Assembly: GCA_949152475.1 (NCBI GenBank)
Contig: OX424561.1
Span: forward strand, 21,446,481-21,510,480
Source of the DNA: Terebella lapidaria
Lineage: Eukaryota > Annelida > Polychaeta > Terebellida > Terebellidae
Length of the DNA stretch: 64,000 nucleotides
Direction: 5' to 3'
Below the pieces are notes generated by a model. It saw nothing but the letters and a program-made list of their open reading frames with translations. It ran no database searches and was not told the origin of the DNA. The translations under genes were made by a program, and so were the position numbers. This document shows, piece after piece, positions 3,966 to 56,006 of this stretch. Each line of letters opens with the position of its first letter. The stretch's first letter is position 1.

Positions 3966-6900
3966 CAGGCATGTCCTGTTTGTTCGCCAGTACAACAAAT
4001 GGAACTTTGGCCATATCCTCGTGATCCAGAATCTTTTTGAGCTCGCATCTCGACTCCTCGATTCTTTCTCTGTCAGAGCTGTCGATAACGTACATTAGAC
4101 CTGGAAAATAAGTTTTGTTTTACGACTGGAAAAATTATGAGAAATCTACAAGTAATGGTGGATAAATAGATCGTATTCTAGATGGAATCAAATCTGATCC
4201 CCTTCTTTATGTACAAGAGAAACTTCGTACCATGTGTGCCCTTGAAGTAGTACTTCCAGAGAGTTCGCAGTCTGTCCTGGCCGCCCACGTCCCAGGTGAT
4301 GTACGCCGTCCGCGGACAGGTCTCGATATCCTCCACATTAAAGCCCACAGTCGGGGTCGTGTACACACTGCGCTTGTACTTGAGCTGGTAGAGGATCGTC
4401 GTCTTACCTGTTGGTTGGGATGCCTTTGTTAAACATTTGACAGTCCAACATTTCACGATCCAATAAGTTATGTTTATTTAGGTAATGCCTGCTAGTCAGA
4501 TTTTGTTTGTGATTAAGTTTACTCCAGACAAAAGATGCTGACGACTCATGGTCAGAGAGTCTAGTTCAGTGTCAAAGTTCGCCTTCTATAATAAACACTC
4601 CGAACATTTGAATCGGACATCAAATATTGTGTGCATACATTAGGATTTCACCATTCCCAGTTTCATTAGGGCATTTCGGCCCGAAATGCCCTTATGGTTT
4701 TGTCTGGGTTTTTTTTTTTTTTTTTTTTTTACTTTCCGTCGTTTTGGTTTCCGATCAATAACTCGGGAACGCCTGAACGGATCTTGTCCAAATTTACACC
4801 ACTGGTCAGAAATATTACATGGAAGACCCCTATTGTTTTGGAGGCGGCTCCGGGGTCCGTGAGGTCCGTGAGGATGAAATCAAGGTTGATTTTGAGACTT
4901 GGTTTCCGATCGATAACTCAAAAAGTATTCATGCAATGGCAAGTATTCTCTGCATGGGAGTTCATATACCACCAAGGAAGAACCCTATTGATTTTGGGAT
5001 CACTCTGTCGAACGACCTTTGACCTAGAGCTCGGAAGAATTTTTGCTGATTCATCCTTGAGGCTTTCTTGCATATCTCGGAAACGGTGTGTCGTAGAGCG
5101 AAACGGAGCTCAATTTCGGCCTCCTGGCACTAGACAAATTAGTCTAGGGGATATCCTGGGTCGAAACGACCCCTGGTGTCGATTTTTTTTTTCGCCGACT
5201 CGGCACTTCCTGTTTGTCCGTATCTCGGAAATGGTATGTCGTAGAGCGAAACGGAGCTCAATTTCGGCCTCCAGGCACTAGACAAACTAGTCTAGTGTGT
5301 ATCTTGGGTCAAAACGACCCCTGGTGTCGATTTTTAGGTTACCGGACCTATGGTCCGTAACCTATTGGCATGGCGATGCGTCCGGCGTCGTCGTCGTCGT
5401 CCGTCGTCGTCGTCGTCGTCGTCGTCCGTCAACAATTTTATCTTTAAAGTTTACGATCGAATTTTTCTGAAATTTTGCACAAAAATGCCTAAAAATATTT
5501 TGAGAGGGAGGTATTTTTTAGTTTTTTGATTTTCGCATTTTTTTCAAAATGGCAGCCGTTTTCGTCGAAAAACGGTCAATTTTGGATTTTGGCGGCCAAT
5601 TTTTCTCAAAATCTGTTCAGTAACTTTTTTTATTATTGATGTATAACACTCCTCATATGTACCCCTGTGACATGTATAAATTTCGTTGCGCTTGAATCGC
5701 TCGAAGTGGGCCATTTTGGGCCCAAACTCAGCCCAAATGGGACTTTCCCATGTTAAATTCTCCTATGCTTTATAATGGGACACATTAAAGCCTAATATCT
5801 CACTTAATATTGAGATTAGAGACTAGGAATCAATTGTGGACATATAGGAAATGATATATGCTGAATATTGTCGTGACCTTGAATTTGACCTCTGACCTTG
5901 GTTTCAAGGTCAGAGCGGCCGTTTTCGTCGAAAAATGGCCAATTTTGGAGTTCGACGGTCGTTTTCTGAAAATCTGTTTCAGTAACTTTTTTTTCTTATT
6001 GATGAAAAACACTCCTCATATGTACCCCTGTGACATGTTTAAATTTCGTTGCGCTTGAATCGCTTGAAGTGGGCCATTTTGGGCCCAAACTCGGCCCAAA
6101 TGTGACTTTCCCATGTTAAATTTTCCTATGCTTTATAAGGCACACATTAAGCCTAATATCTCACTTAATATTGAAATTAGAGACTAGGAATGAATTGTGG
6201 ACATATAGGAAATGATATATGCTGAATATTCTTGTGACCTGGAATTTGACTTTTGACCTCATTTTCAAGGTCACAGGACAAAATGGCTAATATCTCGCTT
6301 ATTATCGACTTTACAGCTTAGGAATCAGTTGTGAACATATAGGAAATGATATATGCTGAATATTCTTGTGACCTTGAATTTGACCTTTGACCTCATTTTC
6401 AAGGTCACATGACAAAATGGCTAATATCTCGCTTATTATCGACTTTACAGTTTAGGAATCAATTGTGAACATATAGGAAATGATATATGCTGAATATTTT
6501 CGTGACCTTGAATTTGACCTTTGACCTCATTTCCAAGGTCGCAGGACAAAATTGCTAATATCTCGCTTATTATCGACTTTACAGCTTTGGAATCAATTGT
6601 GTACATATAGGAAATGATATATGCTGAATATTTTCGTGACCTTGAATTTGACCTTTGACCTCATTTCCAAGGTCGCAGGACAAAATTGCTAATATCTCGC
6701 TTATTATCGACTTTACAGCTTAGGAATCAATTGTGTACATATAGGAAATGATATATGCTGAATATTCTCGTGGCCTTGAATTTGAGCTTTGACCTCATTT
6801 TCAAGGTCACAGGACAAAATGGCCAATATCTTGCTTATTAGCAACTTTACAGCTTAGGAATCGATTGTTAACATATAGGAAATGATATATGCTGAAAATT

Positions 6901-9900
6901 CTCGTGACCTTGAATTTGACCTTTGACCTCATTTTCAAGGTCACAGGACAAAACGGCCAATATCTTGCTTATTAGCGACTTTACAGCTTAGGAATCAATT
7001 GTGAACATATAGGAAATGATATATGCTGAAAATTCTCATGACCTTGAATTTGACCTTTGACCTCATTTTCAAGGTCACATGACAAAATGGCTAATATCTC
7101 GCTTATTATCGACTTTACAGCTTAGGAATCAATTGTGAACATATAGGAAATGATATATGCTGAAAATTCTCATGACCTTGAATTTGACCTTTGACCTCAT
7201 TTTCAAGGTCACATGACAAAATGGCTAATATCTCGCTTATTATCGACTTTACAGCTTAGGAATCAATTGTGAACATATAGGAAATGATATATGCTGAATA
7301 TTCTCATGACCTTGAATTTGACCTTTGACCTCATTTCCAAGGTCACAGGACAAAATGGCCAATATCTTGCTGATTAGCGCCTTTACAGCTTAGAAATAAA
7401 TTGTGAACATATAGGAAATGATATATGCTGAATATTCTAGTGACCTTGAATTTGACTTTTGACCTCATTTTCAAGGTCAACAGGACAAAATGGCTAATAT
7501 CTCGCTTATTATCGACTTTACAGCTTGGGAATCAATTGTGAACATATAGGAAATGATATATTCTGAATATTTTAATGATATTGAATTTGACCTTTGACCT
7601 AAATTTCAAGGTCAGTCATTTTATTTTCAAAGTCAGATTACAAAATGGCTTATATCTCGCTTATTATCAAATTTACAGCTTAGGGGTCCATAGTGAACAT
7701 ATAGGAAATGATGTATGCTGAATAGTTTGGTGATCTAGAATTTAACCTTTGATCCCATTTTCAAGGTTAGAGATATGGCGATTTAACTTTCTCGGCTTAA
7801 CTCTGTATATTTCTCCGGTAACCTTTCTAGCCCATTGGGCTAATTTTTTTTTCGCCGACTCGGCACTTCCTGTTTGGCCGTATCTCGGAAACGGTATGTC
7901 GTAGAGCGAAACGGAGCTCAATTTCGGCCTCCTGGCACTAGACAAACTAGTCTAGTGTGTATCTTGGGTCGAAACGACCCCTGGTGTCGATTTTTTTTTT
8001 CGCCGACTCGGCACTTCCTGTTTGGCCGTATCTCGGAAACAGTATGTCGTAGAGCGAAACGGAGCTCAATTTCGGCCTTTTGGCACTAGACAAACTAGTC
8101 TAGTGTGTATCTTGGGTCGAAACGACCCCTGGTGTCGATTTTTTTTTTCGCCGACTCGGCACTTCCTGTTTGGCCGTATCTCGGAAACGGTACGTCGTAG
8201 AGCGAAACGGAGCTCAATTTCGGCCTTCTGGCACTAGACAAACTAGTCTATGGGGTATCTTGGGTCGAAACGACCCCTGGTGTCGATTTTTTTTTTCGTC
8301 GACTCGGCACTCCCTGTTTGGCCGTATCTCGGAAACGGTGCGTCGTAGAGCGAAACGGAGCTCAATTTCGGCCTCCGGGCACTAGACAAACTAGTCTAGT
8401 GTGTATCTTCGGTCGAGACGACCCCTGGTGTCGAATTTTTTTTTCGCCGACTCGGCACTTCCTGTTTCGCCGTATCTCGGAAACGGTGTGTCGTAGAGTG
8501 AAACGGAGCTCAATTTCGGCCTTTTGGCACTAGACAAACTAGTCTAGTGTGTATCTGGGGTCGAGACGACCCCTGGTGTCGAATTTTTTTTTCGCCGACT
8601 CGGCACTTCCTGTTTGCCATATCTCAGAAACGGTACGTCGTAGAGCGAAACGGAGCTCAATTTCGGCCTTCTGGCACTAGACAAACTAGTCTAGGGGGTA
8701 TCTTGGGTCGAAACGACCCCTGGTGTCGATTTTTTTTTTCGCCGACTCGGCACTTCCTGTTTGGCCGTATCTCGGAAACGGTGCGTCGTAGAGCGAAACG
8801 GAGCTCAATTTCGGTCTCCGGGCACTAGACAAACTAGTCTAGTGTGTATCTTCGGTCGAGACGACCCCTGGTGTCGAATTTTTTTTTCGCCGACTCGGCA
8901 CTTCCTGTTTGGCCGTATCTCGGAAACGGTGCGTTGTAGAGCGAAACGGAGCTCAATTTCGGCCTTTTGGCACTAGACAAACTAGTCTAGTGTGTATCTT
9001 CGGTCGAGACGACCCCTGGTGTCGAATTTTTTTTTCGCCTACTCGGCACTTCCTGTTCGGCCGTATCTCGGAAACGGTGCGTCGTAGAGAGAAACGGAGC
9101 TCAATTCCGGCCTCCTGGCACTAGACAAACTAGTCTAGGTGGTATCTTGGGTCGAAGCGACCCCTGGTGTCGATTTTTTTTTTCGCCGACTCGGCACTTC
9201 CTGTTTCGCCGTATCTCGGAAACAGTATGTCGTAGAGCGAAACGGAGCTCAATTTCGGCCTCCCGGCACTAGACAAACTAGTCTAGTGTGTATCTTCGGT
9301 CGAGACGTCCCCTGGTGTCAAATTTTTTTTCCGCCGACTCGGCACTTCCTGTTTGGCCGTATCTCGGAAACGGTGCGTCGTAGAGCGAAACGGAGCTCAA
9401 TTTCGGCCTTTTGGCACTAGACAAACTAGTCTAGTGTGTATCTTGGGTCGAAACGACCCCTGGTGTCGATTTTTTTTTCGCCGACTCGGCACTTCCTGTT
9501 TGGCCGTATCTCGGAAACGGTACGTCGTAGAGCGAAACGGAGCTCAATTTCGGCCTTCTGGCACTACACAAACTAGTCTATGGGGTATCTTGGGTCGAAA
9601 CGACCCCTGGTGTCGATTTTTTTTTTCGCCGACTCGGCACTTCCTGTTTGGCCGTATCTCGGAAACGGTGCGTCGTAGAGCGAAACGGAGCTCAATTTCG
9701 GTCTCCGGGCACTAGACAAACTAGTCTAGTGTGTATCTTCGGTCGAGACGACCCCTGGTGTCGAATTTTTTTTTCGCCGACTCGGCACTTCCTGTTTCGC
9801 CGTATCTCGGAAACGGTGTGTCGTAGAGTGAAACGGAGCTCAATTTCGGCCTTTTGGCACTAGACAAACTAGTCTAGTGTGTATCTGGGGTCGAGACGAC

Positions 9901-12900
9901 CCCTGGTGTCGAATTTTTTTTTCGCCGACTCGGCACTTCCTGTTTGCCATATCTCAGAAACGGTACGTCGTAGAGCGAAACGGAGCTCAATTTCGGCCTT
10001 CTGGCACTAGACAAACTAGTCTAGGGGGTATCTTGGGTCGAAACGACCCCTGGTGTCGATTTTTTTTTTCGCCGACTCGGCACTTCCTGTTTGGCCGTAT
10101 CTCGGAAACGGTGCGTCGTAGAGCGAAACGGAGCTCAATTTCGGTCTCCGGGCACTAGACAAACTAGTCTAGTGTGTATCTTCGGTCGAGACGACCCCTG
10201 GTGTCGAATTTTTTTTTCGCCGACTCGGCACTTCCTGTTTGGCCGTATCTCGGAAACGGTGCGTTGTAGAGCGAAACGGAGCTCAATTTCGGCCTTTTGG
10301 CACTAGACAAACTAGTCTAGTGTGTATCTTCGGTCGAGACGACCCCTGGTGTCGAATTTTTTTTTCGCCTACTCGGCACTTCCTGTTCGGCCGTATCTCG
10401 GAAACGGTGCGTCGTAGAGAGAAACGGAGCTCAATTCCGGCCTCCTGGCACTAGACAAACTAGTCTAGGTGGTATCTTGGGTCGAAGCGACCCCTGGTGT
10501 CGATTTTTTTTTTCGCCGACTCGGCACTTCCTGTTTGGCCGTATCTCGGAAACAGTATGTCGTAGAGCGAAACGGAGCTCAATTTCGGCCTCCAGGCACT
10601 AGACAAACTAGTCTAGTGTGTATCTTCGGTCGAGACGTCCCCTGGTGTCAAATTTTTTTTCCGCCGACTCGGCACTTCCTGTTTGGCCGTATCTCGGAAA
10701 CGGTGCGTCGTAGAGCGAAACGGAGCTCAATTTCGGCCTTTTGGCACTAGACAAACTAGTCTATTGTGTATCTTGGGTCGAAACGACCCCTGGTGTCGAT
10801 TTTTTTTTTCGCCGACTCGGCACTTCCTGTTTGGCCGTATCTCGGAAACGGTACGTCGTAGAGCGAAACGGAGCTCAATTTCGGCCTTCTGGCACTACAC
10901 AAACTAGTCTATGGGGTATCTTGGGTCGAAACGACCCCTGGTGTCGATTTTTTTTTTCGCCGACTCGGCACTTCCTGTTTGGCCGTATCTCGGAAACGGT
11001 GCGTCGTAGAGCGAAACGGAGCTCAATTTCGGCCTTTTGGCACTAGACAAACTAGTCTAGTGTCTATCTTCGGTCGAGACGACCCCTGGTGTCGAATTTT
11101 TTTTTCGCCGACTCGGCACTTCCTGTTTGGCCGTATCTCGGAAACGGTGTGTCGTAGAGTGAAACGGAGCTCAATTTCGGCCTTTTGGCACTAGACAAAC
11201 TAGTCTAGTGTGTATCTGGGGTCGAGACGACCCCTGGTGTCGAATTTTTTTTCGCCGACTCGGCACTTCCTGTTTGCCATATCTCAGAAACGGTACGTCG
11301 TAGAGCGAAACGGAGCTCAATTTCGGCCTTCTGGCACGAGACAAACTAGTCTAGGGGGTATCTTGGGTCGAAACGACCCCTGGTGTCGATTTTTTTTTCG
11401 CCGACTCGGCACTTCCTGTTTGGCCGTATCTCGGAAACGGTGCGTCGTAGAGCGAAACGGAGCTCAATTTCGGTCTCCGGGCACTAGACAAACTAGTCTA
11501 GTGTGTATCTTCGGTCGAGACGACCCCTGGTGTCGAATTTTTTTTTCGCCGACTCGGCACTTCCTGTTTGGCCGTATCTCGGAAACGGTGCGTCGTAGAG
11601 TGAAACGGAGCTCAATTTCGGCCTTTTGGCACTAGACAAACTAGTCTAGTGTGTATCTTCGGTCGAGACGACCCCTGGTGTCGAATTTTTTTTCCGCCGA
11701 CTCGGCACTTCCTGTTTGGCCGTATCTCGGAAACGGTGCGTCGTAGAGAGAAACGGAGCTCAATTTCGGCCTCCTGGCACTAGACAAGTAGTCTAGGGGG
11801 TATCTTGGGTCGAAACGACCCCTGGTGTCGAATTTTTTTTTCGCCGACTCGGCACTTCCTGTTTGGCCGTATCTCGGAAACGGTGCGTCGTAGAGCGAAA
11901 CGGAGCTCAATTTCGGCCTCCTGGCACTAGACAAACTAGTCTAGTGTGTATCTTCGGTCGAGACGACCCCTGGTGTCGAATTTTTTTTTCGCCGACTCGG
12001 CACTTCCTGTTTGGCCGTATCTCGGAAACGGTGCATCGTAGAGCGAAACGGAGCTCAATTTCGGCCTTTAGGCACTAGATAAACTAGTCTAGTGTGTATC
12101 TTGGGTCGAGACGACCCCTGGTGTCGAATTTTTTTTTCCCCGACTTGGCACTTCCTGTTTGGCCGTATCTCGGAAATGGTGCGACGTAGAGCGAAACGGA
12201 GCTCAATTCCGGCCTCCTGGCACTAGACTAACTAGTCTAGAGGGAAACGGTGCGAATTTTGGGAAACTGGTGTCGAATTTTGCGTCGAGACGACTTCTGG
12301 TGTCGAATTTTTTTTTGCCGATTCAGCACTTCCTGTTTGCCATATCTCAGAAACGGTCCGTCGTAGAGCGAAACGCAAAAATGCCTAAGGACGGGGTATG
12401 TCACTTAAACTTTGACCACGGACAGATTCAGAGTCATTATGGTTCTACGCGGTCTCTTAGGTAAATGTTAGGTAGGAATAGAACTCACACGAAATGCCCC
12501 AAGGCATCTTCAGGCCTTGACGTCTAGTTTTATATATTCGTTCATAATTTGTCGTTCATAATTTGTATTTTTAAACACAACCTTAATTTAGTGTATTGCC
12601 GTCATTCTTCTGTCTAATACAGTATTTTGTTAATCTTAATGTTTGAAAAGTAGTATAGATTTGCTTGACTTCTAGGTTTGGTTTCTAGGTTTTGCTCACA
12701 AGCTCAAATACTTGTGACCCACGTATAATACTTTGATTCTGGGCCGACAAATTTTGATTTCGGTAGATGGCAAAAACCGGAACATCATGCTTACATGTAC
12801 ATATACTTGTCATGACATTAATGTCTAGTTGGCCAACGTAAGGCCAGACTAATACAATAATCAAATCGCCCACACAGTATAGCCTTTTCTCTCTTCCGAT

Positions 12901-15900
12901 CGAGTAATTGTATTTCCGGACGACACACTGTAACAGATATTATAATAGCCCCCGAAGACCTGAAAAAGTGCGTAGATTATGCTGTTGGTCATGTTACATG
13001 TGTAACCTGGTAATTTTCATATCCTCATATCGAAATGTGTGTTCATGAACTACATGTTAAAGTCTGATAGTATTATTGCAGAACTATGAGCAAATATCGG
13101 TCTTTTCATTGTCCATGTCTAAGTATCTCCAGACAATGTTTTTCAGGTTACCGAACTTTTTTGGTCCGATATCGTATTGGCAGGGTGTTGCGTCTAGCCG
13201 GGTAAACATTCAGGGTTAATGGGCTTTGAAATAGCCCCTAAACCCAGGTATTTTTATGAACAAAATGGAATAACGGCTTATTTTGGTGTCAAGTGGTTTA
13301 ACGGAGATACGAAATTTAACATCTTAAAAGCCCTTTAACCTAAAATGTTGGGCCGTCCGTCTGACTAGCCGTGCGTCCTGCCTTACCATTTTTATCTTTA
13401 AAGTTTACGGTCGAACATTTGTGAAATTTTGCACAAAAATACAGAGAGGTATTATTAGTTTTAGGTTACCGTACCTTAAGTCCAGTAACCTGCTGTTGGT
13501 CCGACAACCTATTGCCATAACAAAAATGCCTAAAAAAATATTTGTTTTTGCAATTTTCCCAAAACCGTGGCCATTTTGACTTTAGTGGACATTTTCTTGA
13601 AAACTGCCTGATCATATTTTAAAATTGTTGTTTCAAAAGGTTCCCTTCATGTACCTCTGTGACGTGTATAAGTTCCGTTGCCCTTAAATCGCTGGTCTGC
13701 GTGTGGTGGCCATTCTGAATTTTTCGACAGGTCCAAAATGGGATTTTCCAATGTTAAATTCTCCTGTGCTTCATAATGGGACACATTTCCCCTAATATCT
13801 CACTTAATATTGAGATTAGAGAATTGGAATCAATTGTGGAGATATAGGGAATGATAAATGCTGAAAATACTCTTGACCTTGACTTTGACCTTTGATCTAA
13901 TTTACAAGGTCACAGGCCAAGATGGCTTATATCCCGCTCAATATCGACTTTACTGTTGGGAATCGATTGTGAACATATATATGAACTGATGTATGCCAAT
14001 CATATTTGATGACCTTGAGTTTGACCTTTGACCTCGATTTCAAGGTCAGAGCACAAAATGGCTGATATCTTGCTTATTATCGACTTTACGGCTTAGGAAT
14101 CAATTGTGGACATGATGTATGCCGATTGTGAAAATGATGTATGCCAATTATTTTGATGACCTTGAATTTGACCTTTGACCTCGTTTTCAAGGTCAGAGCA
14201 CAAAATGGCTAAAAATTGCTTATCGACTTTATGGCTTAGGAATCAATGGTGTACATAAAGGAGATGATATATGTCATTCATGAATATATCATATACCATC
14301 ATACATGACCCTGAACTTGACCTTCGAACTTATTTTCAAGGTCGGGGCACAAAATGGCTAATATCTCAGTTTATTTCGACTTTTAAGCTTATTAATCAAT
14401 TGTGCACAGACAGGAAATGATAGATGCTGAATATTCTCATGACCTTGCACTGACCTTCGCATTATTTTCAAGGTCGGAGCACAAAATGGCTAATATCTCG
14501 CTTATTTTCGACTTTACAACTTGAGAATTAATTTTAGACATACAGGAAATGATATATGCTGAATATTCTTGTGACCTTGAATCTGACCAGTGATCTTATT
14601 TTCGACGTCACAGGACAAAATGGCTAGTATCTAAAATATTAAACATGTGTCTGGTAATCTTCCTTAGCCTTTAGGATAATTTTTCATTTTCGCATTTTTT
14701 TTCAAAATGGCGGTCGTTTCAGACGAAAAACGGCCACTTTTGAACTTTGACGTCCATTTTGAGCAGTTTTGATATTTTTGTTTCAAAGGATTCACCTTAC
14801 GTACCTCTGCAATGTATGTAAGTTTCGTCGCCCTCGAATCCCTGGTCTGCGTGTGGCGGCCATTTTGCATTTTCGACGGGTCGGCAAAAAAACTTTTTTT
14901 AGGCCCAAATCAAGTCACTATTCTCTTTGAGTGATTTCCAGCAAAAAAAAATATCCCCCCTTTTAGAAATTTTCTGGACTTAAAAAATTTCACACAATTT
15001 TTTTTTCATGATGGGAGCAGTATGGAGTAAACTCCTGGGACACTTCAAGAGAGAGCTTAAATATTGGCACATTCAAATGGGAAATCATATATTGCAGTTT
15101 CAGTGGTGACTAAATTCAAATTTATTGGTAGATATATTTATGTTGCAATTATATTTTAGGAGTACCTTAGAACACAGTTTTCACAGTGTTTTGTGCCAAA
15201 TGGTGTCATATATTAGGCCTCCTATTTTTTTTTCAAAACTGGGTAGGGAGGGACTTTTTATTTTTCATTTTTTATTTTGCAAAAAAATACCGTCCTCAGC
15301 TCAAGAGAAAATTGGGTAGGGAGGCACTTTTTATTTATTTATTTTTTTTGGTGGGACGACATTTCACACATATGAAAATAAATTTGATTTATTGATTGAT
15401 TAAAAAAACACTTGCGCACAGACGCATTCAAGCCCAAATAAATCAAGCCTTTTGAATTGAAATCATGTGTAACACATGACTTCGTTTCTAGAGGCTCGAT
15501 TTATTTGGGCTTAAAACCTCTTGGCCGGGCACATTGACACTACTGGTGTGCTATCATTATTACAGACAGGATGATTCTGTGTACTAGTAGCATCATGATA
15601 AAAACCGTCAGTTGATGATATATTTCAATGATGAGTAATTGTTGAGAACCGTTCTATCAGTTAATATGTCCTTTGAAGTATAACATGAGGAATAGAGTAA
15701 ATCAATTAATACATACACGTAATCACATAGAATAACTGTTTTTGAAAACTGGTAGCGTCTTTGTCTCATTTGGCGGAGAGTGAAAACAAGGAGGTAAGTT
15801 AAATATATGCCTTGCATAAGTTGCATGCTGTGATTACGTTTCTCGATCATTCACTATCCCCAAAATAGGGGCGGGAACACTTTATTTTTTATTTGAGAAT

Positions 15901-18900
15901 CGCAAAAAAAAAATTAGTACCGGACAATGTTTAATATTTTAGATGTTAGCCAGGTCAATGATTAAATTCAAGGTCGAGAGAATATTCAGCATAAATAATA
16001 TTAAGCATATATTATGTCCACAGTTGATTGCTTAGCTGTAAATTCAATAATCAGAGAGATATTAGAATTTTTTTGCTGTGGCCTTGAAAATGAAAGCAAT
16101 GGTCAAATTCAAGGTCATCAAAATAATCAGTGTACATTGTATATTATTTTCTACATGACCACAATTGATTCCCAAGCCATACAGACAATAGAGGAGCAAA
16201 ATATGAGCCAGTTTGTCCTTGGACCTTGAAAATGAGGTCAGAGGTCAAATTCAAGGTCACGAGAATATTCAGCATATAGCATTTCCTATATGTCCACAAT
16301 TGATTCCTAAGCTGTAAAATCGATAATAAGTGAGATATTAGCCATTTTGTCCTGTGACCTTGAAAATGAGGTCAAAGCTAAAATTCAAGGTCATGGCAAT
16401 AATTTGCACATATTTCCTATATGTTCATAACTGATTCCTAAGCTGTAAAGTCGATAACAAGCGAGATATTAGCCATTTTGTCCTATGACCTCGAAAATGG
16501 GGTCAAAGGTCAAATTTAAGGTCATCAGAATATTCAGTATATATCATTTCCTATATGTCCACAATTGATTCCTAAGCTGTAGAGTCGATAATAAGCGAGA
16601 TATAAGCCATTTAGTACTATGACCTTGAAAATGGGGTCAAAGGTCAAATTCAAGGCCATCAGAATATTCAGCATATATCATTTCCTATTTATCCACAATT
16701 GATTCCTAAGGTGTAGAGTCGATAATAAGCGAGATATAAGCCATTGTGTGCTCTGACCTTGAAACTGAGGTCAAAGGTCAAATTCAAGGTCACGAGAATA
16801 TTCAGCATTTTTAAGTGAGATATTAGGCATAATGTGTTCCGTTATAAAGCATAGGAGAATTTAACATGGGAAAGTCCCATTTGGGCCAAAATGGCCCACT
16901 TCGAGTGACTCGAGCGCAACAAAATTTATAGACATCATAGGAGTACATATGAGGAGTGTTATGTATCAAAAAGAAAAAAAAGTTACTGAACAGATTTTGA
17001 GAAAATGGCCGCCAAAGTCCAAAATCAGGCATTTTTCGTCGAAAACGGCCGCCATTTTGAAATAAAAAATGCGAAAATCAAAAAACTAAAAAATACCTCC
17101 TTCTTGAATTATTTTTAGGTATTTTTGTGCAAAATTTCAGAAAAATTCGCCCGTAAACGAAAAAGATAAAAATTAGCCCAAAGGCTAAGACAGGTTACCG
17201 GACAATTTTGGTTTGGCCATGGCAGCATTGGCAGGTAACAGACCTTGACATTTACCAATCAAGGTTCGCAGTGTGAACAAATGACCTTGAGATTCACCAA
17301 TCAAGGTCATCCGTGTGAACTTCAATGTCACCATTACATGTATGTGTGCGGCATTTGATATTCTATATGTTCATAATACAAAGATATATCTGGGTGGAGT
17401 CATTACGAGTCAGACATTTGGCACTCAAGGTCATCTGACGTCAAGATCAAGGTCATCATTAGTTGTGCCATATATGTCTTGCTATATGTTCATAATGCAA
17501 ACAGGAGTTCTATATGCAAGCATTTCATCTATAGAGGCATATCTGGGCATTTTTTCACCCCAAAATGGCTGTTCCGACCTTTCAAGGTCATCCAAGGTCA
17601 AATTCAAGGTCACCACACAAGTCGCCATATATGGCTTTCCATTTGAAAGTGCCAATTTCTAAGCTCTATCCTCAGGCGTTCTAGGAGTACAGTCCTGGCA
17701 GCTCCCATTATGTATAGGATAATGCCCTAGGCTGAGTATTTCTCACGAATAGAGACCGAGGCCGAAGGCCGAGGTTTCTATTCGTGAGGAATACGAAGCC
17801 GTAGGCATTATCCGACATAGTGCATGCACCGCCCCCCCCCCCCCCCCCACACACACACGCACACATTTCTGGTACAGGCCACTCCCCCCCCCCCTCCCCC
17901 CTCCCCCCCCCCCACATACACTTTACGTAATTCACTATATATCAAAAGAACAAAACTGCAAAAGCAACGCACAGTCCTTGCCCAATCAAGTGTATCCGTC
18001 AGGAAAGCTTTGAATCACTCGCTACAGAAACTGCTTCCCCACATGAGTCAGCTCATAGATTGTACCTTCAACCCTAGCCCGCATTCTGTTGTTATGGCTA
18101 CAGTATACATGGTTCCAACTGAGTGTGTTTCTGGTGGACTCGCACTGTGCCTTTGAGCTGTTTTCTCCCCCTAGTAACGCGTTTGTGAGTATTGCTCAAA
18201 TGGAACCCTATAAAAACAAACGCGGCAAAAGGCGCGCTCACTTTGAAACAGCAAGCTACGTGACACCAACTTTTCGTGATGAAAAATGCAACACATGGAT
18301 ACGATGCATGCGGATATAAACGCGTGTTCTGACGCGCCTGTTTGTTGGATACAGTTGCAAAATCTTATTCCTGGGAATTACTCAAACTTTTGGTCTAACC
18401 AGATGCAGTACATGAACAACATACCAGATTTGTAAACCGGTGAGTATATCACTCTTCTTTGAATTCAAAACAAAATTCTCAAAACAGAATTCAAAACAAA
18501 ATTCTCCTTCTGCATTATCTAAAGGGTTGTAACCATGTACAAAGAATTGAATCATAATTTATGCCCGAACAAATATCTTTATCCTGCGTTCTTTCAATCC
18601 TTATAAGAAAATAAAAAACGATTTGTACACATGTATTTACAGAATTCCTCGTAAAACCACTACAGTAACGGCGATTATAAAGTTTGATCCATGACTTCCA
18701 CGTACGACCGGTAAGTAAAAGATTTTTTTTGGTGTGCTATCCCTGCATTGAATTTATATGGCGGAGTGAAAGTTATGTTCAAATTGTTCCCATAATACAT
18801 ATGCTGAATAGGTATAAACTAGATTTGAAGAGGAAAAATCAAACATTCATGTTTGTATATTTCATTCATGTTTGCAGGAAAATTACGTTATGCGTGATCT

Positions 18901-24107: not shown

Positions 24108-24524
24108 CACGTACAAATATAGCATGTAACCTGCATTGTATTGACCATATTTACATCTTTGGACATGTTTTATTGTGTCAAATATGGAAAATCTCTTGGT
24201 GAATATCACATATGTATAAATATGAATGAATGTGAATATATGTGATCAGTTTCAGTGTGTTGATACCTAGAACAAAGAATAGTTCGGAAATCATTTGCCA
24301 ATTTATTTCACAATACGTCTACATGTATTTACACGAAGTAGCCTCCTTAATATGAAGAGGCAAACGTATACTGTCGTCCATGCAAACAATACGACCATGT
24401 AATTAATACAATCTACAACTCGATATACCAGCGATTTGTACGCATAATACACAAACACACAATTAATATTCATTTTTCACGGTACAATCTTCAATATATG
24501 TGAACACCCTTACATAAATGCCTG

Positions 24525-29687: not shown

Positions 29688-30839
29688 AGGTTACCGGCCC
29701 TATGGTCCGATAACCTATTGGCATGGCGTTGCGTCTTTCGTCGGCGTCGTCGTCCGTCCATATTTTTATCTTTAAAGTTTACAGGTGAATCTTTTTGAAA
29801 TTTTGCAGAAAAATGCCTAAAAATAATTAAAAAAGGGTGCATTTTTAGTTTTTTGATTTTCGTGTTTTCTTCAAAATGACGGCCATTTTCAACGAAAAAC
29901 GACCAATTTCTGACTTTGGCGGCCATTTTCTCAAAAACTGTTCAGACAGTTTTGAGATTTTTATTTCAAAAGATTCCCCTCATATACCTATGTGATGTGT
30001 ATAAGTTTCGTTGCCCCTGAATCGCCAGTCTGCGTGTGGCGGCCATTTTCATTTTCTCGACGGGTCCCAAATGGGACATTCCCATGTTAAATTCTCTCCT
30101 ATGCTTCATAATGGGACACATTATGCCTAATATCTCACTTAATATTGAGATTAGAGACTAGGAATCAATTGTGGACATATAGGAAATGATATGTGCCGAA
30201 TATTCTCGTGACCTTGAATTTGACCTCTGACCTCAGTTTCAAGGTCAAGAGCACAAAATGGCTGACATCTCGCTTATTATCAACTTTAAAGCTTAAGAAT
30301 CAATTGTGAGCCTATAGGAAATGTTTTATTCTGAATATTGCTATGACCTTGAATTTGACCTTTGATCTGATTTTCAAGGTCAGAGCACAAAATGGCTGAT
30401 ATCTCGCTTATTATCGACTTTACAGGTTAGGAATCAATTGTACACATATAGGAAATGACATATGCCGAATATTCTTGTGATCTTGAATTTGACCTTTGAC
30501 CTTATTTTCAAGGTCAGAGCACAAAATGGCTAATATTTCGTTTACTATCGACTTTACAACTTGAGAATCAATTGTTGACATATAGGAAATGATATGTGCT
30601 GAATATTTTCATGACTTTGAATTTGACCTTTGGCCTCATTTTCAAGGTCACATGACAAAATGGCTAATATCTCGCTTATTATCGACTATAAAGCTTAGGA
30701 ATCAATTGTGGACATATAGGAAATGATATATGCTGAACATTGTCGTGACCTTGAATTTGATCTTTGATCCATTTTCAAAGTCTCACAGAACAAAATGGCT
30801 AACATCTTGTTTACTATCAACTTTGCAACTTAGGATTCA

Positions 30840-32830
30840 ATTTTGGACTTATATATGCTGAATTATATATGCTGAATATATTAAATACGCATATAAAATA
30901 TTGAATACACATATATTAAAAGATTAAATACGCATATAAAATATTAAATATGCATAATAAATGATTAAATACGCATATAAAATATTAAATATGCGTTAAA
31001 TGATTAAAATATTAAATACGCATATATAATATTAAATACACGTAATAAATGATTATATAGGCGTATTTAATATTGTAACGGGTTTGCACCCTTCTGTGAC
31101 GTCTTGATGAACCGGTTTTCTTGGGAGGTTGGTGAGTTGTTATTTAACCGGAGCTGAAACGGTAAAACTCCGGGATACTGCTACTGCTGTACGGTTGAAC
31201 TCCGGCTAGAAGTCTCTAAGGTTGGTAGCGTGGTCTGGAATGGACCTCTTAACCGTTGTCCGACTGCTAATCTGCAACTGCACCTGTAAAGTAAGGATCC
31301 GGAGGCGTTTCCGTCTCCGGGTACTGCAACTGCTCCGTCGGGATACTGCTTTACTGCAACAGCTCCGTCGTTTTCCGCCTTACTGCAAACTGCGACTGCA
31401 CCTGGAATAGAGAATCCGGGAACGTTGCCGTTTCCGAATACTGCACCCGCTCTGCCAGGTTCCGCCTTACTGCAAACTGCTCCGGTTGACTCCGCCTCAC
31501 CGCAACCTGCGACTGCACCTGAAATGGAGTATCTCGGAAGTGTTCTCACTTCCGGTTACCGCAACCGCTCCGTCAGGTACTGCCTCTGCAACTCCGTCGT
31601 CCGGTACCGCCTCTGCAACTGCTTCGTCGTTCCCGTCTCTGCAACTGCTCCGTCCGATACCGCCTCCGTAGTTGCTCCGTTGAATTCCACCTCCGTCTCC
31701 GTCTCCTTCCTCGGTGATCTGGGTTCTTAGATCACCCTAAGACGTCGTTACAACTTGGTCTTAACCGACTGTGGTCTTATCTCCCTTTACTCCATATTAC
31801 TTTCTTTTCCGGTGAACTAACTTTATTATAAATTCCAGTTCCCTAACGAACACGGAAAAACAACTCGGTTGAAGTTTTCATGTTTATTTTCCAGGTGCAC
31901 AGTCGGAAGACTTAACTGCTATCATCTGGATGACTCTATCCGGAACAAGGGAGTACTCTGCTATGGGAGAAGGGGTCTGCACAGGTCGACGTCAGGACAC
32001 CAACTCCGCCGTCCGCTGTGAAGCGTGGGCTTTTATAGACCTGAGACCCATGTCACGTGACCAACCTATTGTGACGTCATAGTCCGCCAAAACACTGATA
32101 TTTTCCGGATTTCTAAAAACACTCTAGAACCAATCAGTGGCTGACACGTCACCTTTCAAACCGAAAACGAGGCTGATCACATGACCTTCCGGAAATAACG
32201 TCATTACGTTTTTGTACTCCATTGTTCCGGCTCCGTCTCCGGTTCCGTCTCCGGTTCCGGCTCCGTCTCCGGCTTTACCAACATCATAAATATACCAAGT
32301 TCCGAGACGGAAAACCTTTTAAACATTAACAATACGGAACCGTATGAACCTTTAAACACATATACATTTTAATAAACGGTTGTTTAACCATAATATCACA
32401 AAACATTAACAGAATTATTAGGGGAAACTTTTGGGTACGCCCCAAAACCGTTACAATATTAAATATGCATAAAAATATTAAATATGCATAATAAATGAAT
32501 AATGATGCATGTAAAATATTAAATATGCATAAAAAATATTAAATACGCATAATAAATGATTAATTATACATATAAAATATTAAAAATGCATATTAAATGA
32601 TTATATACGCGAAAAAAATATCAAATACGCGTATACAATAATAAATATGCGAATTAAATTATTAAATATGCATAAAAATAATAAATATGCATAAAAGATA
32701 TTAAACATGCATAATAAATGATTAAATATGCATATAAGATATTAAATATGCATATTAAATGATTAAATACGCATACAAACTATTAAATACGCGTATATAA
32801 TAATTAAATGCGCCCTACAATATTTCCCTA
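30840..32830. repeat. AT-rich minisatellite, interrupted by an LTR
   Basis: Short units of the type 'ttaaatacgcatataaaat' and 'ttaaatatgcataataaatg' repeat with variable spacing at about 30840-31073 and 32456-32830. The stretch between them is the LTR-like fossil, so the minisatellite predates that insertion. It is embedded in the N6 core. Confidence 0.75.
31074..32455. mobile_element. Solo LTR-like fossil (probably Ty3/gypsy-type)
   Basis: The segment starts TGTAACGG and ends CCGTTACA, with the 4-bp repeat ATAT directly on both sides, as expected for an LTR-retrotransposon target duplication. It is 1382 bp and contains no pol-like reading frame. Internally it has CCG-rich degenerate repeats ('gctccgtc', 'ctccggttccg'). 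The matching flanks suggest a fairly recent insertion followed by loss of the body by LTR-LTR recombination. Assignment to Ty3/gypsy rests only on the terminal motif and is an inference; a long-TIR DNA element is the alternative. Confidence 0.5.
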
Positions 32831-33847
32831 CAATATTTTTAAAAAAAATTAATAATAAGGTGATGTCCTAAAAGAGCCAACGTAGACACATTATGCCTAA
32901 TATCTCACTTAATATTGAAATTAGAGACTAGGAATCAATTGTAGACACATAGGTAATGATATATGCTGATTATTGTCATGACCTTGAATTTGATCTTTGA
33001 CCTCATTTTCAAGGTCAGAGCACAAAATGGCTAATTTATCGCTTATTATCGACTTTACAGCTTAGGAATCAATTGTGCACATATAGGAAATTATATATTC
33101 TGAATATTCTGATGATCTTGAATTTGACCTTTGACCTCATTTTCAAGGTCAAAGCACAAAATGACTAATATCTCAATTATTATCGACTTTACAGATTGGG
33201 ACTAAATTTTGGACGTATAGGAAATGATGTATGCCAAATATTTTGATGATATTGAATTTGACCTTTGACCTGATTCTCAAGGTCACAGGACGAAATGGCT
33301 AATATCTCGCTTATTATGTACTTTACACCTTAGGAATCAATTGTGCACATGTATATAGGAAATGATATATGCTGAATATTTTCATCAGCTTCAACTTGAC
33401 TTATGACCTCATTTTCGAGGTCAGAGCACTACATTTCTAATATTTTGCTTATTATCGACTTTACAGCTGGTGAATAAATTGTGGTTGTATAGGAAATGAT
33501 GTATGCCGAATATTTTCATGACCTAAATTTGACATTTGACCTCATTTTCAAGGTCACAGTACGACATGGCTAATTTGTCGCATATTATCGACTTTACAAC
33601 TTGACAATCAATTTTGGACATACTGGAATGATATATATGCCGAATATTCTGATGACCTTTGATTTGACCTTTGTGGTCATTTTCAAGGTCGCGGGAAAAA
33701 ATTGACAATATCTCTCTCAGTATTGAATTTACAGCTTAGCAATCAATTGTGGACATATAGGAAGTGATAAATGCTGGATATTCTCATGACTTTGGATTTG
33801 TTCATAAACAAATATTATCCGGTAACCATTCTAAGCCCTTGCGCTAA

Positions 33848-35890: not shown

Positions 35891-36726
35891 ATCCATTGGC
35901 CTTGATTACCAAGTTTTGACTTATGGTCGTTTCCTGAAAGTCTGTTCATTAACTTTTCTTGTAATTTATGCATAAAACTCCTTATATGTATCCCTGCCGT
36001 GTGTATGAGTTTCGTTGTCCTTGAATCTCTGGTCTGTTCATGGTGACCATAATTATTTTGATTTATCGCCAAATTGGCGAAAAAAAATCTTTGGTTCGAA
36101 ATCAAGTCACTATTTGTTTTGAGCCATTTCCAGCCAAGTTACATACATAGCGATTTCAATAGTGAGCTTGAATTTGACCTTCAATTAACTTGAAAAACCA
36201 AAACGGAAATTTTGTTTTAAAACAGCAGTGACCTCATGCAAGACATTTCTCCGCCAATTGTTCTTAGCGCTTGGACTAATTTTCGAGTTTCCGATTAATC
36301 AGTTTCAAACCCTATCCACTAAAAAATGACATCGGTGTATGTGGAATCACCCATTAATAACATTGCACATGTACCACAAAAGTTTATTTATACATACTGC
36401 ATCCAACAATATACATTTACAACAAACATAACAATGATAATATAATAATAAAGCATATCATGTAGATTTTGTGGATCGTTGACCTCCATTTTTCCCAGCC
36501 CAATTCAGTTATAAAGTTGCTAAATGGAATAAAACCTTTTTCTATCACGATCAGAGAATCTATAGCCAATCAGTATTACGTGTATTCGAAATATGAGTGT
36601 ATTATTTACATACTAGTATAGGTATAAATCGCAGATATAGAGACATCATACAATATCACATCAGGTGAACGGAGGAACACGGATCTGTATGAATATATTC
36701 CAATCAGACAGGCATCGTGGACAACA

Positions 36727-42248: not shown

Positions 42249-43331
42249 CTATCGTCCTTGTTTCTTGAACTGTTTGACTAGCGTGGACAGAGCTTCCATT
42301 CCCTCGTAGATACCGTCGCCATTGACAGCGCACGTGCCCTGCACATGCCACTTGTGACTACCCGCCAACTTGCGCAGTTCCAGCTTCTCGATAATGTCAT
42401 AAGGACGCAATGCATCTGGAAGTAAAGTGAGCACATTAATTAATTATGATTCTAGGAATCATTGGTAAGATGTATTCTTAGACGGACTTTACCATAACTA
42501 CATAGCCTACATTGATTTGTGTTAACTTCACTTAAGGGGGCCTATAGATATTTCTCAATTATGATCTAACCTAAGCAGATACCGTTTTAATAACATTTAC
42601 TACGCAAAGCAGTAACTTTACTTTAGTATGTTAGCCATGCTGTTAGCCAAATAAAGCAAAAATGCAACTCACTGGGCATGTCCTGTTTGTTGGCAAGAAT
42701 CACGAACGGGACTCCTCTCATTTGGTCACTCTCCAAGATCCCAAATAACTCGTCCCGGGCCTCGCTCAGTCGCTCTGTGTCCTGGCTGTCCACCACAAAA
42801 ATCAACCCTGGAAAGAGATATTGTGTGTAACTATACGGGAAAAAGTTATATTTTAAGCCAATATGTAGTTCTACCTTATTTGACACTTTTTTTAGTCCGG
42901 ATTATGGCCTATATGTGGACCTACCTTCGGTGTTCTGGTAGTAGTGCTCCCAGAGGCGCCTAATTTTCTCCTGACCGCCCACGTCCCACACAGTAAAGCT
43001 GACACCTTTCACTGGCGTCACCGTCTCGACGTTAAACCCGATAGTCGGAATGGTGCAAACATTCTCGTTCAGTTTCACCTTGTACAGGATTGTCGTTTTA
43101 CCTGGGATGGAGATAAACCAAATAGCTAGGTTTCATTATATAAAGGCCTAAAAATGTATACGTCATATAAGTTAATTAGCAACTGCGCTTTGTTGTTGTA
43201 AGATTTCTGTTTGCATAAAAGTCTGAAAGTTACTCACCAGCTGCGTCCAGTCCAAGCATCAGAATTCTTGCTTGTTCCCCATCCATGAAGTTTTGGAATA
43301 GACTGGTCAATTTGCTCAAAAACAAACCCAT
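42249..43331 (-). CDS. ARF-family small GTPase, gene E (most ARF1-like)
   Basis: Four exons: 43331-43238, 43101-42925, 42807-42673 and 42415-42249. The protein is 190 aa. [18 protein letters not shown] forms the myristoylated amphipathic N-helix. GLDAAGKTT is at residues 27-35, then [14 protein letters not shown] (70-75, Gln75), NKQD (130-133) and [13 protein letters not shown]. All ARF hallmark residues are present, so this is an active GTPase that would recruit effectors to membranes. It is the tightest gene in the array, with introns of 117-257 bp. Its start codon lies 736 bp from that of RAB4 on the other strand, so the two may share a promoter region. ARF identity is firm; which ARF subclass is not. 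Confidence 0.96.
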
Positions 43332-44067
43332 CGCGTTACAGAGTTAACAAAATTATTCGTAAAAAAACCAAATTTCACTGCTGAATTGGATATATAGGCC
43401 TATTGTTGCGTGGTCCTATCTGTAGTTTTCTCAAGACAGCATGCAGGTCGATCCCTTTCTTGTGGTCGTGTAGGCCCTAAACTCTTTTTTGCTAGAGATT
43501 TCTGTGTTGTTCTGCATTGCGACCAATATTCCACGGTTTTTTATAATGCTTAACCTGATGATGAAATTTTGGCCGCCGTGTTTATTTCCACCGTGCATAG
43601 CTCCACGTGGCCACGTCCATGTCGGCGGCTTTCACAGTGGAGCAAATTTATCGATTTCACTCGGACACGAAATCGACACGGTCCTCTGCGGTGCATCGCT
43701 GGAGAATCCAGCATGGAATTTCTTGCAGTCATGACGTCATACGAAGTGATTCCCATGACGTAACGAACATCAACAAAACTCCCACTTCCTGTTTGGACTT
43801 CCACGCATTGAAACAGCAATTTCAGCTTTTCACACAAGAAACAATATATACAATATGTTGTATCAGCAATTCATGATATTAATTTAGATGTTCTGATAGA
43901 ATTTATGAAACATCAAGCAAATTACGCTGCCAAACTTATTTTGACAGTTCATGGCGATCACGTGACCAAATGTAGAAGAGGCCATATTTGTTATTCGACA
44001 AGGAGGAAGGTTGCACTTTCGGTTCAATTTGTTTCCTGCGTAATCAACAACAAAATACAATCTAACC
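43332..44067. promoter_or_regulatory. Divergent intergenic region between gene E and RAB4, CRE and E-box motifs
   Basis: Only 736 bp separate the two start codons. The region is richer in CG than its surroundings and holds a perfect CRE, TGACGTCA (43732-43739), a CRE half site TGACGTAA (43756-43763) and an E-box CACGTG (43604-43609). TCACGTGACC (43958-43967), about 100 bp above the RAB4 ATG, matches the TFEB/MITF-type extended E-box. No TATA box was seen near either start. Function is inferred from motif match only. Confidence 0.4.
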
Positions 44068-53140
<9,073 letters not shown>

Positions 53141-54614
53141 TGCCTTCGTTCATTTGATTTTATCAGACATTGTATCACCGTGTGATTGCATTTCTATGGC
53201 TGGATCTCACCGAGGAGTTACCATAGTAACACTGCTGAATAATCAGCGCCTGATCCTGTTTTCGTGGCGACCAGAAGCCGCCATTTAGCCATTTGAAATT
53301 CAATGCTTGTTAAGTTGTATATCCCAGACTTCTTACAGAAGAAATGCCATCTGAACATACTCACTCGTTATGAATACCATGTCAACAGTATCAACATTTT
53401 GTTTTGCATGTATATGGAGCTTGATTTGTAGCTTGTATGACTTCACGAGACTCTGCGGGCCAAATGAGTATGCTGTGCGATGCATTTAGACACTAATACA
53501 TGTAAGCTAAGATGATGAAAATTGCCCAAATATTGATCGATACATATGCTAGCTACAATGATTCAAATACCTGACAGATCTACCTGTATGGAAAGAAAGT
53601 TTCCATTAATATCGTACATCTGAAAGGTAACAAAATTACTGAGACAGTTGTGATAGAAGTGTAGGATGGTGCTGAGGAAGTAACATCGGCTTGTGTGTAG
53701 GTGTGTGTGTATGTCTGTGTGGCTACAAATGTTGACTAGTCGGAGTAAGAATGTACGAGGAAATGGTCCCAATATAAAATATATCAACGTTTTCTCGGAA
53801 TGTTCAAAAGTTTTATAATTTTCCATGTGATATTATGATATACCCTCCAAAAATCATTGCTTATGTATTCTTGTGATGTGATATGGGATAGATACTTGTA
53901 AGTTAATATTCCAATTTAACATATAACTATTGATACTAACAAGTGATAATTTTTGTTCAAATACAATTTATATGTAGCAAGTACAAATTGTACATAATTG
54001 TTAATGTACATTCTGGATACATTTCTAGGTCTGAGCAATGTGTGCATTCTTTCCAGCCACATTTCTATGAACACTGTATCCAGATGGAGACTGATTGCCG
54101 ACACATTTATAAAATCACTGCATTCATGTTTGCATGGAGTATTTAATTGTTTGTAAATGGAGGTGTGAAGAAGTTCAAATGACATAATTGTGTATAGCAG
54201 GCTTCATTCAGTCACCAATTGTGTCCCATGTTTTACGTAATTCATAGAACATCATGTTGTTGGAGGCTACAAAGTCTCTGACGGGTGGGTATGTGTGTTA
54301 TTGTGCAATACTTGGTATGCTGTTCACTTTTATGAGAAGTATTTCTTCTGAATGTTTTCTTGTGTACATGTGCACATTATGTGGATATTAACAAACACTA
54401 GTGATTGACTGATCTTTGAAACTTGGTGAGTTTAATTATAACGTACTATATATAACTTTATACCAGTTGTGCAGTTATTGTAAAGAGCAAAAATTATCAT
54501 CTACGTGCATAGGCTTTGGATGAAGGGAGCAATTTCAAAAGCATTGAAACAGCTTAAACATTTATAGTTGTATTTTTGTAAGTTTGTGCTTGTTCAAAAT
54601 ATCCTTGTTATAAT
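53141..54614. other. RAB4 3' UTR and downstream; no second gene seen
   Basis: The sequence after the RAB4 stop probably contains the 3' UTR, but its end cannot be placed. No coding region was found before the M2 element. Confidence 0.4.
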
Positions 54615-56006
54615 TAAGGCATTTCGGAAGAAATGCCTTTATGGTTTTAGCAGAATTTTTTTTTTCCTTTTTTTTTTTTTTTTTTTTTCTTCCGCCGTGT
54701 TGGTTTCCGACTGATAGCTTTAGTTTGCCTCGATGTATCTTCACCAAATTTTCAGCATTGGTCAGACATATTATGTGGAAGAACCCTATTGTTTTTCAGC
54801 CGGATCCGAGGTCCGTGAGGATGAAATCAATGTTGTTTTTTGGACTTTGTTTCCGCACGATAACTTAAAAAGTATGTAGGCAATGGCTGCATAACTTTGC
54901 ATGGAGGTTTATATATCAACAGGGAAGAACCCTAGCATCAATCCGTCAAACGACCTTTGACCTAGAGGTCGGAAGAGTTTTCGCCCAGTCATCCTTGAGG
55001 TTTCCTGCATATCTTGGAAACGGTGCGTCGTAGAGCGAAACGGACGTTATTTTCGGACTCGTAGCCCTAGACAAACATGTCTAAGGGGTATTAAGGATGA
55101 CTTTCGACCTTGACCTTGAATTTTTCTGCTGAGTCGGCATTTTTCGTTTTCGCCTATATCTCGGAAACGATGCGTCATAGAGCGAAAAGGCTGTTATTTT
55201 CGAACTTGTGGCACTAGACAAATATGTCTAAGGGGTATTATGGATGAACTTTGACCTTGATGTAAAATTTTTTCGCCGAGTCGGCATTTTTCGTTTTCAT
55301 CGATATCTCGGAAACGGTGTGTCGTGGAGCGAAACGGACATTATTTTCAGACTTGTCGCCCTAGACAAAAGGTCTAAAGGGTATTAAGGATGACCTTTGA
55401 CCTTGACCTTGAATTTTTCTGCCGAGTCGGCATTTTTCGTTTTCGTCGATATCTGGGAAACGGTGCATCGTAGAGCGAAACGGACGTTATTTTCGGACTC
55501 GTCGCCCTGGACAAACATGTCTAAGGGGTATTAACGATGACCTTCGACCTTGACCTTGAATTTTTCTGCCGAGTCGGCATTTTTCCGTTTTCGTCCATAT
55601 CTCGGAAACGATGCATCGTAGAGCGAAACGGACCTTATTTTTGCACTCGTGGCACTAGACAAACATGTCTAAAGGGTATTATGGATGAACTTTGACCTTG
55701 ACCTCAAATTTTTTCGCCGAGTCGGCATTTTTCGTTTTCGTCGATATTTCGGAAACAGTGCGTCGTAGAGCGAAACGGATGTTATTTTCGGACTCGTGGC
55801 ACTAGAAAACCATATCTAAGGGGGTATTATGGATGAACTTTGACATAAATTTTTTTCGCCAAGTCGGCATTTTTCGTTTTCGTCAATATCTTGGAAACAG
55901 TGTGTCGTAGAGCATTGTAGAGTCCATGATAAACATTTTATAAATATTACAAATTAGTCTTAACACCGAAATGCCTCCAAGGCATCTTTAGGCCTTGACG
56001 TCTAGT
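54615..56006 (+). mobile_element. M-family Helentron/Pearl-like element M2, short core
   Basis: The left end TTAAGGCATTTCGG forms a hairpin with AGAAATGCC; the right end is CCGAAATGCC, then AAGGC/GCCTT hairpin text and gacgtCTAG before TT. The 5' unique segment aligns with that of M1 ('ttggtttccga', 'tccgtgaggatgaaatcaa', 'aaaagtat'). The core has about six 142-148-bp monomers with 'gagtcggcatttttcg' and 'tcggaaacg', related to M1's but diverged. Several monomers contain TGACCTTTGACCTTGACCT. Confidence 0.75.

Follow-up and report, generated by a model that had tools for sequence, protein, structure and literature searches.

The window, a 64,000-nucleotide stretch of DNA from Terebella lapidaria, contains six repeat copies, two each of the families M, N and E, and a Rab4-like gene (Table 1). 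The three families have unrelated sequences and are built on one ground plan: subterminal inverted repeats, terminal hairpins, tandem arrays, a CTAG or CTAA tip and insertion on the T side. This plan had been proposed in a preliminary description of the window, and refined coordinates, repeats, arrays and tips confirmed it. The tandem monomers measure 147-148 bp in M, 134 bp in N and 131-132 as well as 121 bp in E. By blastn-short, no meaningful similarity was found between cores of different families, and the two M cores had a single stretch in common (31 bp, 90% identity). E copy 1 is placed directly upstream of the first Rab4-like exon read, and E copy 2 lies between two exons of that gene.

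Table 1. Positions of the HINE copies in the window and of one coding Helentron copy elsewhere in the genome
Feature	Position	Strand	Tandem arrays	Terminal parts	Remarks
M copy 1 (HINE)	4668..12527	+	5034-5335 and 7844-12240 (~148 bp monomer)	5' hairpin 4668-4692; 3' subterminal repeat 12490-12499; 3' hairpin 12500-12519; CTAG 12524-12527	N copy 1 nested inside at 5336-7843
N copy 1 (HINE)	5336..7843	+	6153-7614 (134 bp)	3' subterminal repeat 7814-7824; hairpin 7828-7842; CTAA 7840-7843	sits in T run of an M monomer
N copy 2 (HINE, decayed)	29688..33847	+	30123-30879 and 32893-33800		broken by another element, about 31066-32462
E copy 1 (HINE)	46559..49072	+	47074-47948 (132 bp) and 47965-48767 (121 bp)	3' subterminal repeat 49029-49038; hairpin 49046-49061; CTAG 49069-49072	
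E copy 2 (HINE)	49827..51479	+	50336-50756 and 50808-51118	3' subterminal repeat 51436-51445; hairpin 51453-51468; CTAG end 51479	
M copy 2 (HINE)	54616..56005	+	55009-55913 (147 bp)	3' subterminal repeat 55966-55976; CTAG 56002-56005	
H copy C9 element	C9:36037528-36057178				19.65 kb

The longest exact inverted repeats between the 5' and 3' subterminal regions were 10 and 11 bp in M (GGGCATTTCG / AGGCATTTCGG), 11 and 9 bp in N (AGGTTACCGGA / GGTTACCGG) and 10 and 10 bp in E (GTATCCCCCG; E-type ends are GTATCCCCCG and GCGTCTAG). In all six window copies the distance of the repeat to the terminus is 0-1 bp on the 5' side and 19-34 bp on the 3' side. The 5' hairpin has a stem of 12 bp in M copy 1, 10 bp in M copy 2 and 6 bp in N copy 1 and E copy 1; this hairpin or its inverted partner was unrecognisable in N copy 2 and E copy 2, leaving four of the six copies clear. 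At the 3' end, palindromes with stems of 6-7 bp occur in 5/6 copies, N copy 2 having a stem of 4 bp only. Hairpins at both ends, as originally described, are thus present in most copies but have decayed in N copy 2 and partly in E copy 2. The tip next to the T's is CTAG in M and E and CTAA in N, and TT is found on either side of every window copy (6/6). The terminal string ascribed to M and E stands as a common CTAG tip with TT, but its letters are (A/G)CGTCTAG rather than g(a/c)cgt. Left junctions beginning TTA hold for M (ATT/A, the slash marking the junction) but not for E (ATT/G, E starting TT/GTATCC).

As a control for chance, 3000 random segment pairs were drawn from the same window. Inverted repeats of at least 9, 10 and 11 bp occurred in 2.0%, 0.7% and 0.3% of these pairs, respectively. 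Control pairs in which such a repeat came with 5' and 3' hairpins no shorter than the observed ones numbered 0 of 3000 for either M copy, 2 and 48 for N copies 1 and 2, and 5 and 12 for E copies 1 and 2. Taken by themselves, the hairpins of N copy 2 and that at the 5' end of E copy 2 were not above chance; a 6-bp stem alone arises in about 20% of controls.

Using tip patterns that included the hairpins, we counted 5565 M, 2233 N and 3106 E 3' tips at no more than 2 mismatches in the 761.6-Mb genome, while the reversed-pattern controls gave 0 for each family. The 3' ends were sharp. With the last 91 bp of M plus flank as query, all 39 other rows among the best 40 scored ended 3-17 bases beyond CTAG, and for E all 39 others among the best 40 ended 2-12 bases beyond it. 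At the 5' end of M, 39 of 40 other long matches began at window positions 4659-4666 (query 60-67), the one exception beginning at 4651 (query 52). M, N and E are mobile families.

A profile search for the Rep domain (PF14214, Helitron_like_N) yielded 150 scored matches among 234 candidates, all above the curated cut-off of 28.9 bits and many within open frames of at least 2000 aa. Helentron Rep genes are abundant in this genome. Rep motif 2 was present in its Helentron form, RIEFQARGSPHAH, with S between G and P, in 30/30 Rep loci read. None of these 30 was a copy of family H, the group that became central to the analysis of N; its Rep domain was placed by profile alone, with matches of 104.3-105.8 bits over profile positions of about 34-191. 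The longest frames of H reach about 2500 aa. An AP-type endonuclease match (Exo_endo_phos, E 9.9e-06; L043) lies behind the helicase matches of H copy C9 and continues in another frame; these helicase matches are weak, with E near 1e-4 and one of the three exceeding its own cut-off. In a second family, B (L046), Exo_endo_phos was matched at E 2.7e-05 at the end of a 2356-aa frame, and the B locus and a further one (L032) have DUF6570, OTU and Rep domains. The predicted domains of H and B are the Helentron domain set.

The two H copies at C9:36049350 and C14:35161006 can be aligned as far as ...TCTCCGGTAACCTTTCTAGCCCTTGGGCTAATTTT and diverge thereafter. Including eight further copies that were picked by group and not by their end, all ten H copies whose 3' end was read finish at the same base with ...TCTCCGGTAACCTTTCTAGCCCTTGGGCTAA and a run of 4 or more T, beyond which their flanks differ. 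The tip of N copy 1 in the window equals the 33-base tip of H except for CCCATTGGG in place of CCCTTGGG. When the genome was searched with the H 3' region, 34 other places were matched. At 31 of them, which include 9 of the 10 copies read, the alignment reached the tip and in every case stopped at query positions 784-790, inside the T run; the three remaining places matched the inner part only, and one short row, at C17:5324080, ran across the boundary as an exception. For 22 of the 31 tips, a Rep match (PF14214) lies 5.4-11.6 kb upstream on the same strand, against a chance expectation of about 0.1% each. For the other nine, the windows used, into which 87 of the 150 Rep matches were entered, held no Rep match, and decayed copies are likely to be among these nine too; conversely, 10 of the 32 entered H-group Rep matches, including the query C9 itself, had no tip row within 12 kb. 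Over the final 330 bp of H, three copies that occupy separate sites show 100% identity, indicating that H moved recently. Two Rep copies of a '70-group' also seemed to end in N's tip and were dropped: the tip on C4 belongs to a 741-bp N insertion, with a decayed N 5' end 741 bp before the tip end and N core between them, and for the C2 copy 191 bp before the tip were read.

The 5' end of N was likewise found upstream of Rep, in H copy C9 (L077:29) and in a related copy at C4:21223670 (L056:1406), and these two share more sequence inside N's 5' end. Over the first 600 bp, N copy 1 and H copy C9 are 87% identical. The N 5' end upstream of Rep in H copy C14 is of a variant form (L051:168) and is separated from Rep by 200 N bases and other insertions, and the inner 5' sequence of H was not recognised upstream of Rep; this end may therefore belong to a truncated N copy. 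In H copy C15, where an assembly gap and an unrelated tandem array intervene, no N 5' end was found. Genome-wide, a Rep match follows the inner 5' region of H within 30 kb on the same strand at 14 of 37 places, with about 0.3% expected for each; at the other 23, some of which are likely to be decayed copies, no Rep match was present in the windows used (87/150 Rep matches entered). The 5' region, Rep and the tip occur in this order at 8 loci (9 rows). The array of N was not seen in the H regions read.

The unread middle of the C9 copy falls within a single open frame of 2526 aa, which leaves no room for a second N end. The sequences that flank this copy, TGCTTTATAATGGGGCTCATT on the left and CCAAATATCTCACTTAATATTGAG on the right, are the two halves of a stretch that is unbroken in other N copies; most simply, the whole unit, Rep included, entered an N repeat as one piece. 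Based on these predicted features, N shares its ends with a coding Helentron family, H, with Rep, helicase and endonuclease domains, and H is very probably the machine that moves N.

The last 170 bp of H look partly N-like and include the words AACCTATTGCCA and GACCTTGAATTTGACCTT, so that H may owe its N tip to an insertion of N long ago. H would then move by other ends, carrying a frozen N-HINE, and would not be the partner of N; the C4 relative is a case in which an N HINE has landed next to a Rep gene. We consider this improbable: every one of the 31 tip-reaching alignments stops at the tip, the N 5' end of C9 is found across Rep from the tip, and the C9 unit bounded by these two N ends splits a stretch of N that would be complete without it.

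For M and E, the 5-kb 3' flanks of 12 other Rep copies, from groups sorted by score and identity (L052-L055, L067-L074), contained no tip of either family, whether searched for exactly or with as many as 3 substitutions allowed. One of these flanks holds the M array. This Rep copy, at C14:13676585, abuts the array with its 3' side, the array being in reverse orientation, and an M 5' end closes the far side of the array (L075:1015). A Rep copy on C1 shares this junction of M array and Rep 3' flank (86-87% identical), and there too no M tip lies between the two. The fusion was thus seen in two of two copies, with the M 5' end read in one and the M 3' tip in neither; among the matches listed, the 3' flank of the C14 copy appeared in no further row, and rows for its 5' side were confined to a different repeat, some 950 bp long, that lies within that side. 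The reading of the C14 copy as a full M-type Helentron was rejected: its M 5' end and array are present in reverse orientation, but the 10 kb read on its other side contained no M 3' tip, neither an exact one nor one with up to 3 substitutions. A 347-aa piece of this M-type Rep is 30-38% identical to the other listed Reps and 45-95% identical to its own near relatives (117 of 228 candidates scored, including one H relative, C5:43484853, at 30%). From the position of the array, this Rep copy is a likely candidate for the engine of M, and we tentatively place M in another Helentron lineage than H. A Helentron with its Rep gene in opposite orientation has been described by Thomas et al. (PMC4067079).

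These partners bear on the earlier proposal that a single Rep-helicase source moves M, N and E, with M and E read through a shared CTAGTT tip. Its basis is that all three families share the plan and T-side insertion, and that M and E have (A/G)CGTCTAG with TT in common. However, the ends of N lie on H, while the M array adjoins a different, reversed Rep gene in both copies seen, with the M 5' end in one, and a single source is therefore not supported. The subterminal repeats are completely different between families, and according to Thomas et al. 2014 (PMC4067079, as far as available) family membership needs at least 11 bp of identical subTIR. The M/E tip itself, CGTCTAGTT, comprises CTAG, three letters and target T's; because it is so short, and because subterminal repeats and hairpins differ, it is weak evidence for a shared enzyme, and the suggestion that one enzyme recognises both families was not borne out. 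The genome search for Rep-helicase genes with matching ends succeeded for the N tip on H, but none of the Rep genes whose flanks were read had the pair of M ends or the pair of E ends. We regard a single source as unlikely.

Three N-type insertions allowed comparison with uninterrupted sites. N copy 1 is flanked in M by T5 and T9, where uninterrupted M monomers have 9 or 10 T's in 22 of 23 cases and 8 in one. An N copy within N (L051) is flanked by T4 and T5, as compared with T5 in 4/4 uninterrupted sequences, and H copy C9 by T5 and T4, where its relatives have 5-6 bases (TTATG, TTAAG, TTAAAG). About four extra T's were thus gained in each case, and no duplication was seen outside the T run. 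Element-borne terminal T's and a TTTT duplication fit these sites equally well, and the predicted insertion between T's without target duplication stands only as far as the sequence outside the T run; terminal T's have been reported for Helentrons and some Helitron2 elements in the available parts of two studies (PMC4067079, PMC5148889). That the families are cut-and-paste MITEs, their repeats being terminal inverted repeats and the roughly four T's added by two N copies and H copy C9 a 4-bp TTTT target duplication, is highly improbable, as the repeats are placed asymmetrically (5' distance 0-1 bp, 3' distance 19-34 bp), the tip reads CTAG or CTAA, and the coding relatives with N's ends have a Rep domain and showed no DDE transposase in searches aimed at other domains.

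Taken together, our preferred reading, which we hold with a probability of roughly 0.83, is that M, N and E are independent HINE families, N being moved by H and M, tentatively, by another Helentron with a reversed Rep gene. The initial classification as HINE/Pearl-type non-autonomous relatives of Helentrons is upheld by the abundance of Rep genes, the ends of N on family H and T-side insertion. According to our reading, the three families would have kept only the sites needed by a Rep-helicase, placed around tandem arrays: the 5' hairpin with its subterminal repeat, the 3' subterminal repeat, the 3' hairpin and the CTAG or CTAA tip beside the T's. By analogy with the Helentron literature, Rep would nick and peel off one strand at the 5' end and halt at the 3' hairpin and tip, and the copy would be joined into a T-rich site without target duplication. 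The source would be family H for N, with near-identical copies at different sites, and possibly a different Helentron with its Rep gene in reverse orientation for M.

The kind of element is already known, since the plan equals the HINE plan published for mites, flies and oyster. Comparisons here refer to the available parts of the cited papers. Cg_HINE elements of Crassostrea gigas (PMC7492417) likewise have a 5' subTIR with a complementary inverted repeat, a 3' subTIR and a 3' palindrome, a microsatellite and one or two satellite-like arrays (oyster monomers 138-181 bp), a T-rich target, described for the oyster elements as having no TSD, and several sequence-unrelated families in one genome. 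The comparison is one of plan, and ten autonomous oyster elements could not be related to the HINEs, whereas N is tied here to a coding Helentron. Bivalve Pearl elements, as described in the same paper, are non-autonomous with short arrays of ~160-bp repeats, and are likened to ours by description only. In the available part of the oyster genome paper (PMC7992393), no autonomous element is reported and Helitron-like elements are judged likely inactive.

HINE-Mo, DINE-1 and their Helentrons (PMC4067079) resemble the present case in that ends are common to HINEs and to Helentrons with Rep, helicase and endonuclease, in their palindromic subTIRs and in T's that vary at both ends; their sequences differ, and N has both its 5' region (600 bp, 87%) and its 3' tip in common with H. 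Helitron2 elements of Fusarium (FoHeli, PMC5148889) share asymmetric terminal inverted repeats, hairpins at both ends, T-side insertion, an ATTTT end in two subgroups and reversed ORFs in some subgroups, but are fungal elements without an endonuclease domain, as described in the part available. New here is the link, by its ends, between one satellite-carrying HINE family and a coding Helentron, together with evidence for M in another lineage; among the titles and abstract openings listed from the open PMC literature, none announced a mollusc HINE tied to a coding Helentron. Because the ends of N connect it with a coding Helentron that was copied recently, how satellite arrays spread becomes a testable question, and a shared blueprint need not imply a shared enzyme.

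E-type 3' ends also precede the putative Rep start, by 427 bp in C9, 418 bp in C14 and 239 bp in C4. These and a fourth, in C15, are not four independent cases, because C15, read over 454 bp, is identical to C14, tip included. A DR1-like motif considered as a function was dropped, its copies being one repeat unit and giving no independent support. A broader scenario, which we consider rather doubtful, is that separate Rep lineages each keep their own satellite HINE family, with unrelated passengers converging by copying the end sites of their own engine, and that the E-type HINEs at an almost fixed place shortly upstream of the Rep start in N-type Helentrons (4/4 copies read, two identical) may be carried within an engine that fails to recognise their own ends, or may serve as its promoter.

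A second composite of M with N was observed on C2 (L002), continuous with the window copy at 97%. As N sits there at the same spot in M and no match was found left of M's start, the composite of M and N seems to have moved as one unit.

A further copy of M, one of the non-autonomous Helentron (HINE) families of the window, was found on C2, where it bears an insertion of the HINE family N at the identical place within M (window 4668-5440 versus L002 1568-2293, reverse strand). Left of M's start, no match was seen between the C2 copy (L002) and the window. Given these observations, the M-plus-N composite seems to have moved as one unit. The second N copy of the window is itself interrupted by an inserted element (about 31066-32462) whose ends are inverted, TTTAATATTGTAACGG / CCGTTACAATATTAAA.

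The motif TGACCTTTGACC had 17 exact occurrences in the window compared to 0.02 expected, a count that reflects repeated units, and all were located within M, N or N-like arrays. It is a candidate DR1-like nuclear-receptor motif. An additional N-like family occurs in L076 (8625-10000) and starts with AGCTTACCGGCCC..GGGCCGATAAGCT; its repeats of ~450 bp match window 2222-3285 at 94%.

The window copies of the third HINE family, E, lie beside or between exons of a Rab4-like GTPase gene, for which, with reading frames examined, the top PDB match was Rab-4B. E copy 1 is positioned upstream of the first of the three exons read, and the second and third of these flank E copy 2.

Positions of motif sites, exons and E-type ends
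Feature	Sequence	Position
TGACCTTTGACC sites	window	6381-7599, 14022-14180, 16501-16780, 30490, 33125-33270, 55391
Rab4-like GTPase gene, first of three exons read	window	49395-49472
Rab4-like GTPase gene, second of three exons read	window	49613-49726
Rab4-like GTPase gene, third of three exons read	window	51633-51692
E-type 3' end near putative Rep start	L041	1530-1573
E-type 3' end near putative Rep start	L044	1965-2007
E-type 3' end near putative Rep start	L057	about 7630-7672
E-type 3' end near putative Rep start	L056	6968-7555

In H, the coding Helentron family carrying N's ends, and in related Helentrons, E-type 3' ends also lie a short way upstream of where Rep putatively starts. In C9 and C14, E-type 121-bp repeats lie in the interval from the E-type tip to Rep. 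C9 further contains a stretch (L077 about 1730-3600) that by eye resembles the protein of a non-LTR retrotransposon, including a PHD-type finger, and appears to be captured or inserted. Upstream of the H copy C15, a tandem repeat was observed that recurs every 1657 bp (L057 199-6800). In another Helentron family, B, several palindromes ACTTGCCG..CGGCAAGT (L040 4700-5001) follow past the 3' flank and a tandem array of ~330 bp. The palindromes, which perhaps represent a further end family in which the Rep gene is reversed, resemble, in inverse orientation, a palindromic stretch adjoining an N copy (L051 41-75).
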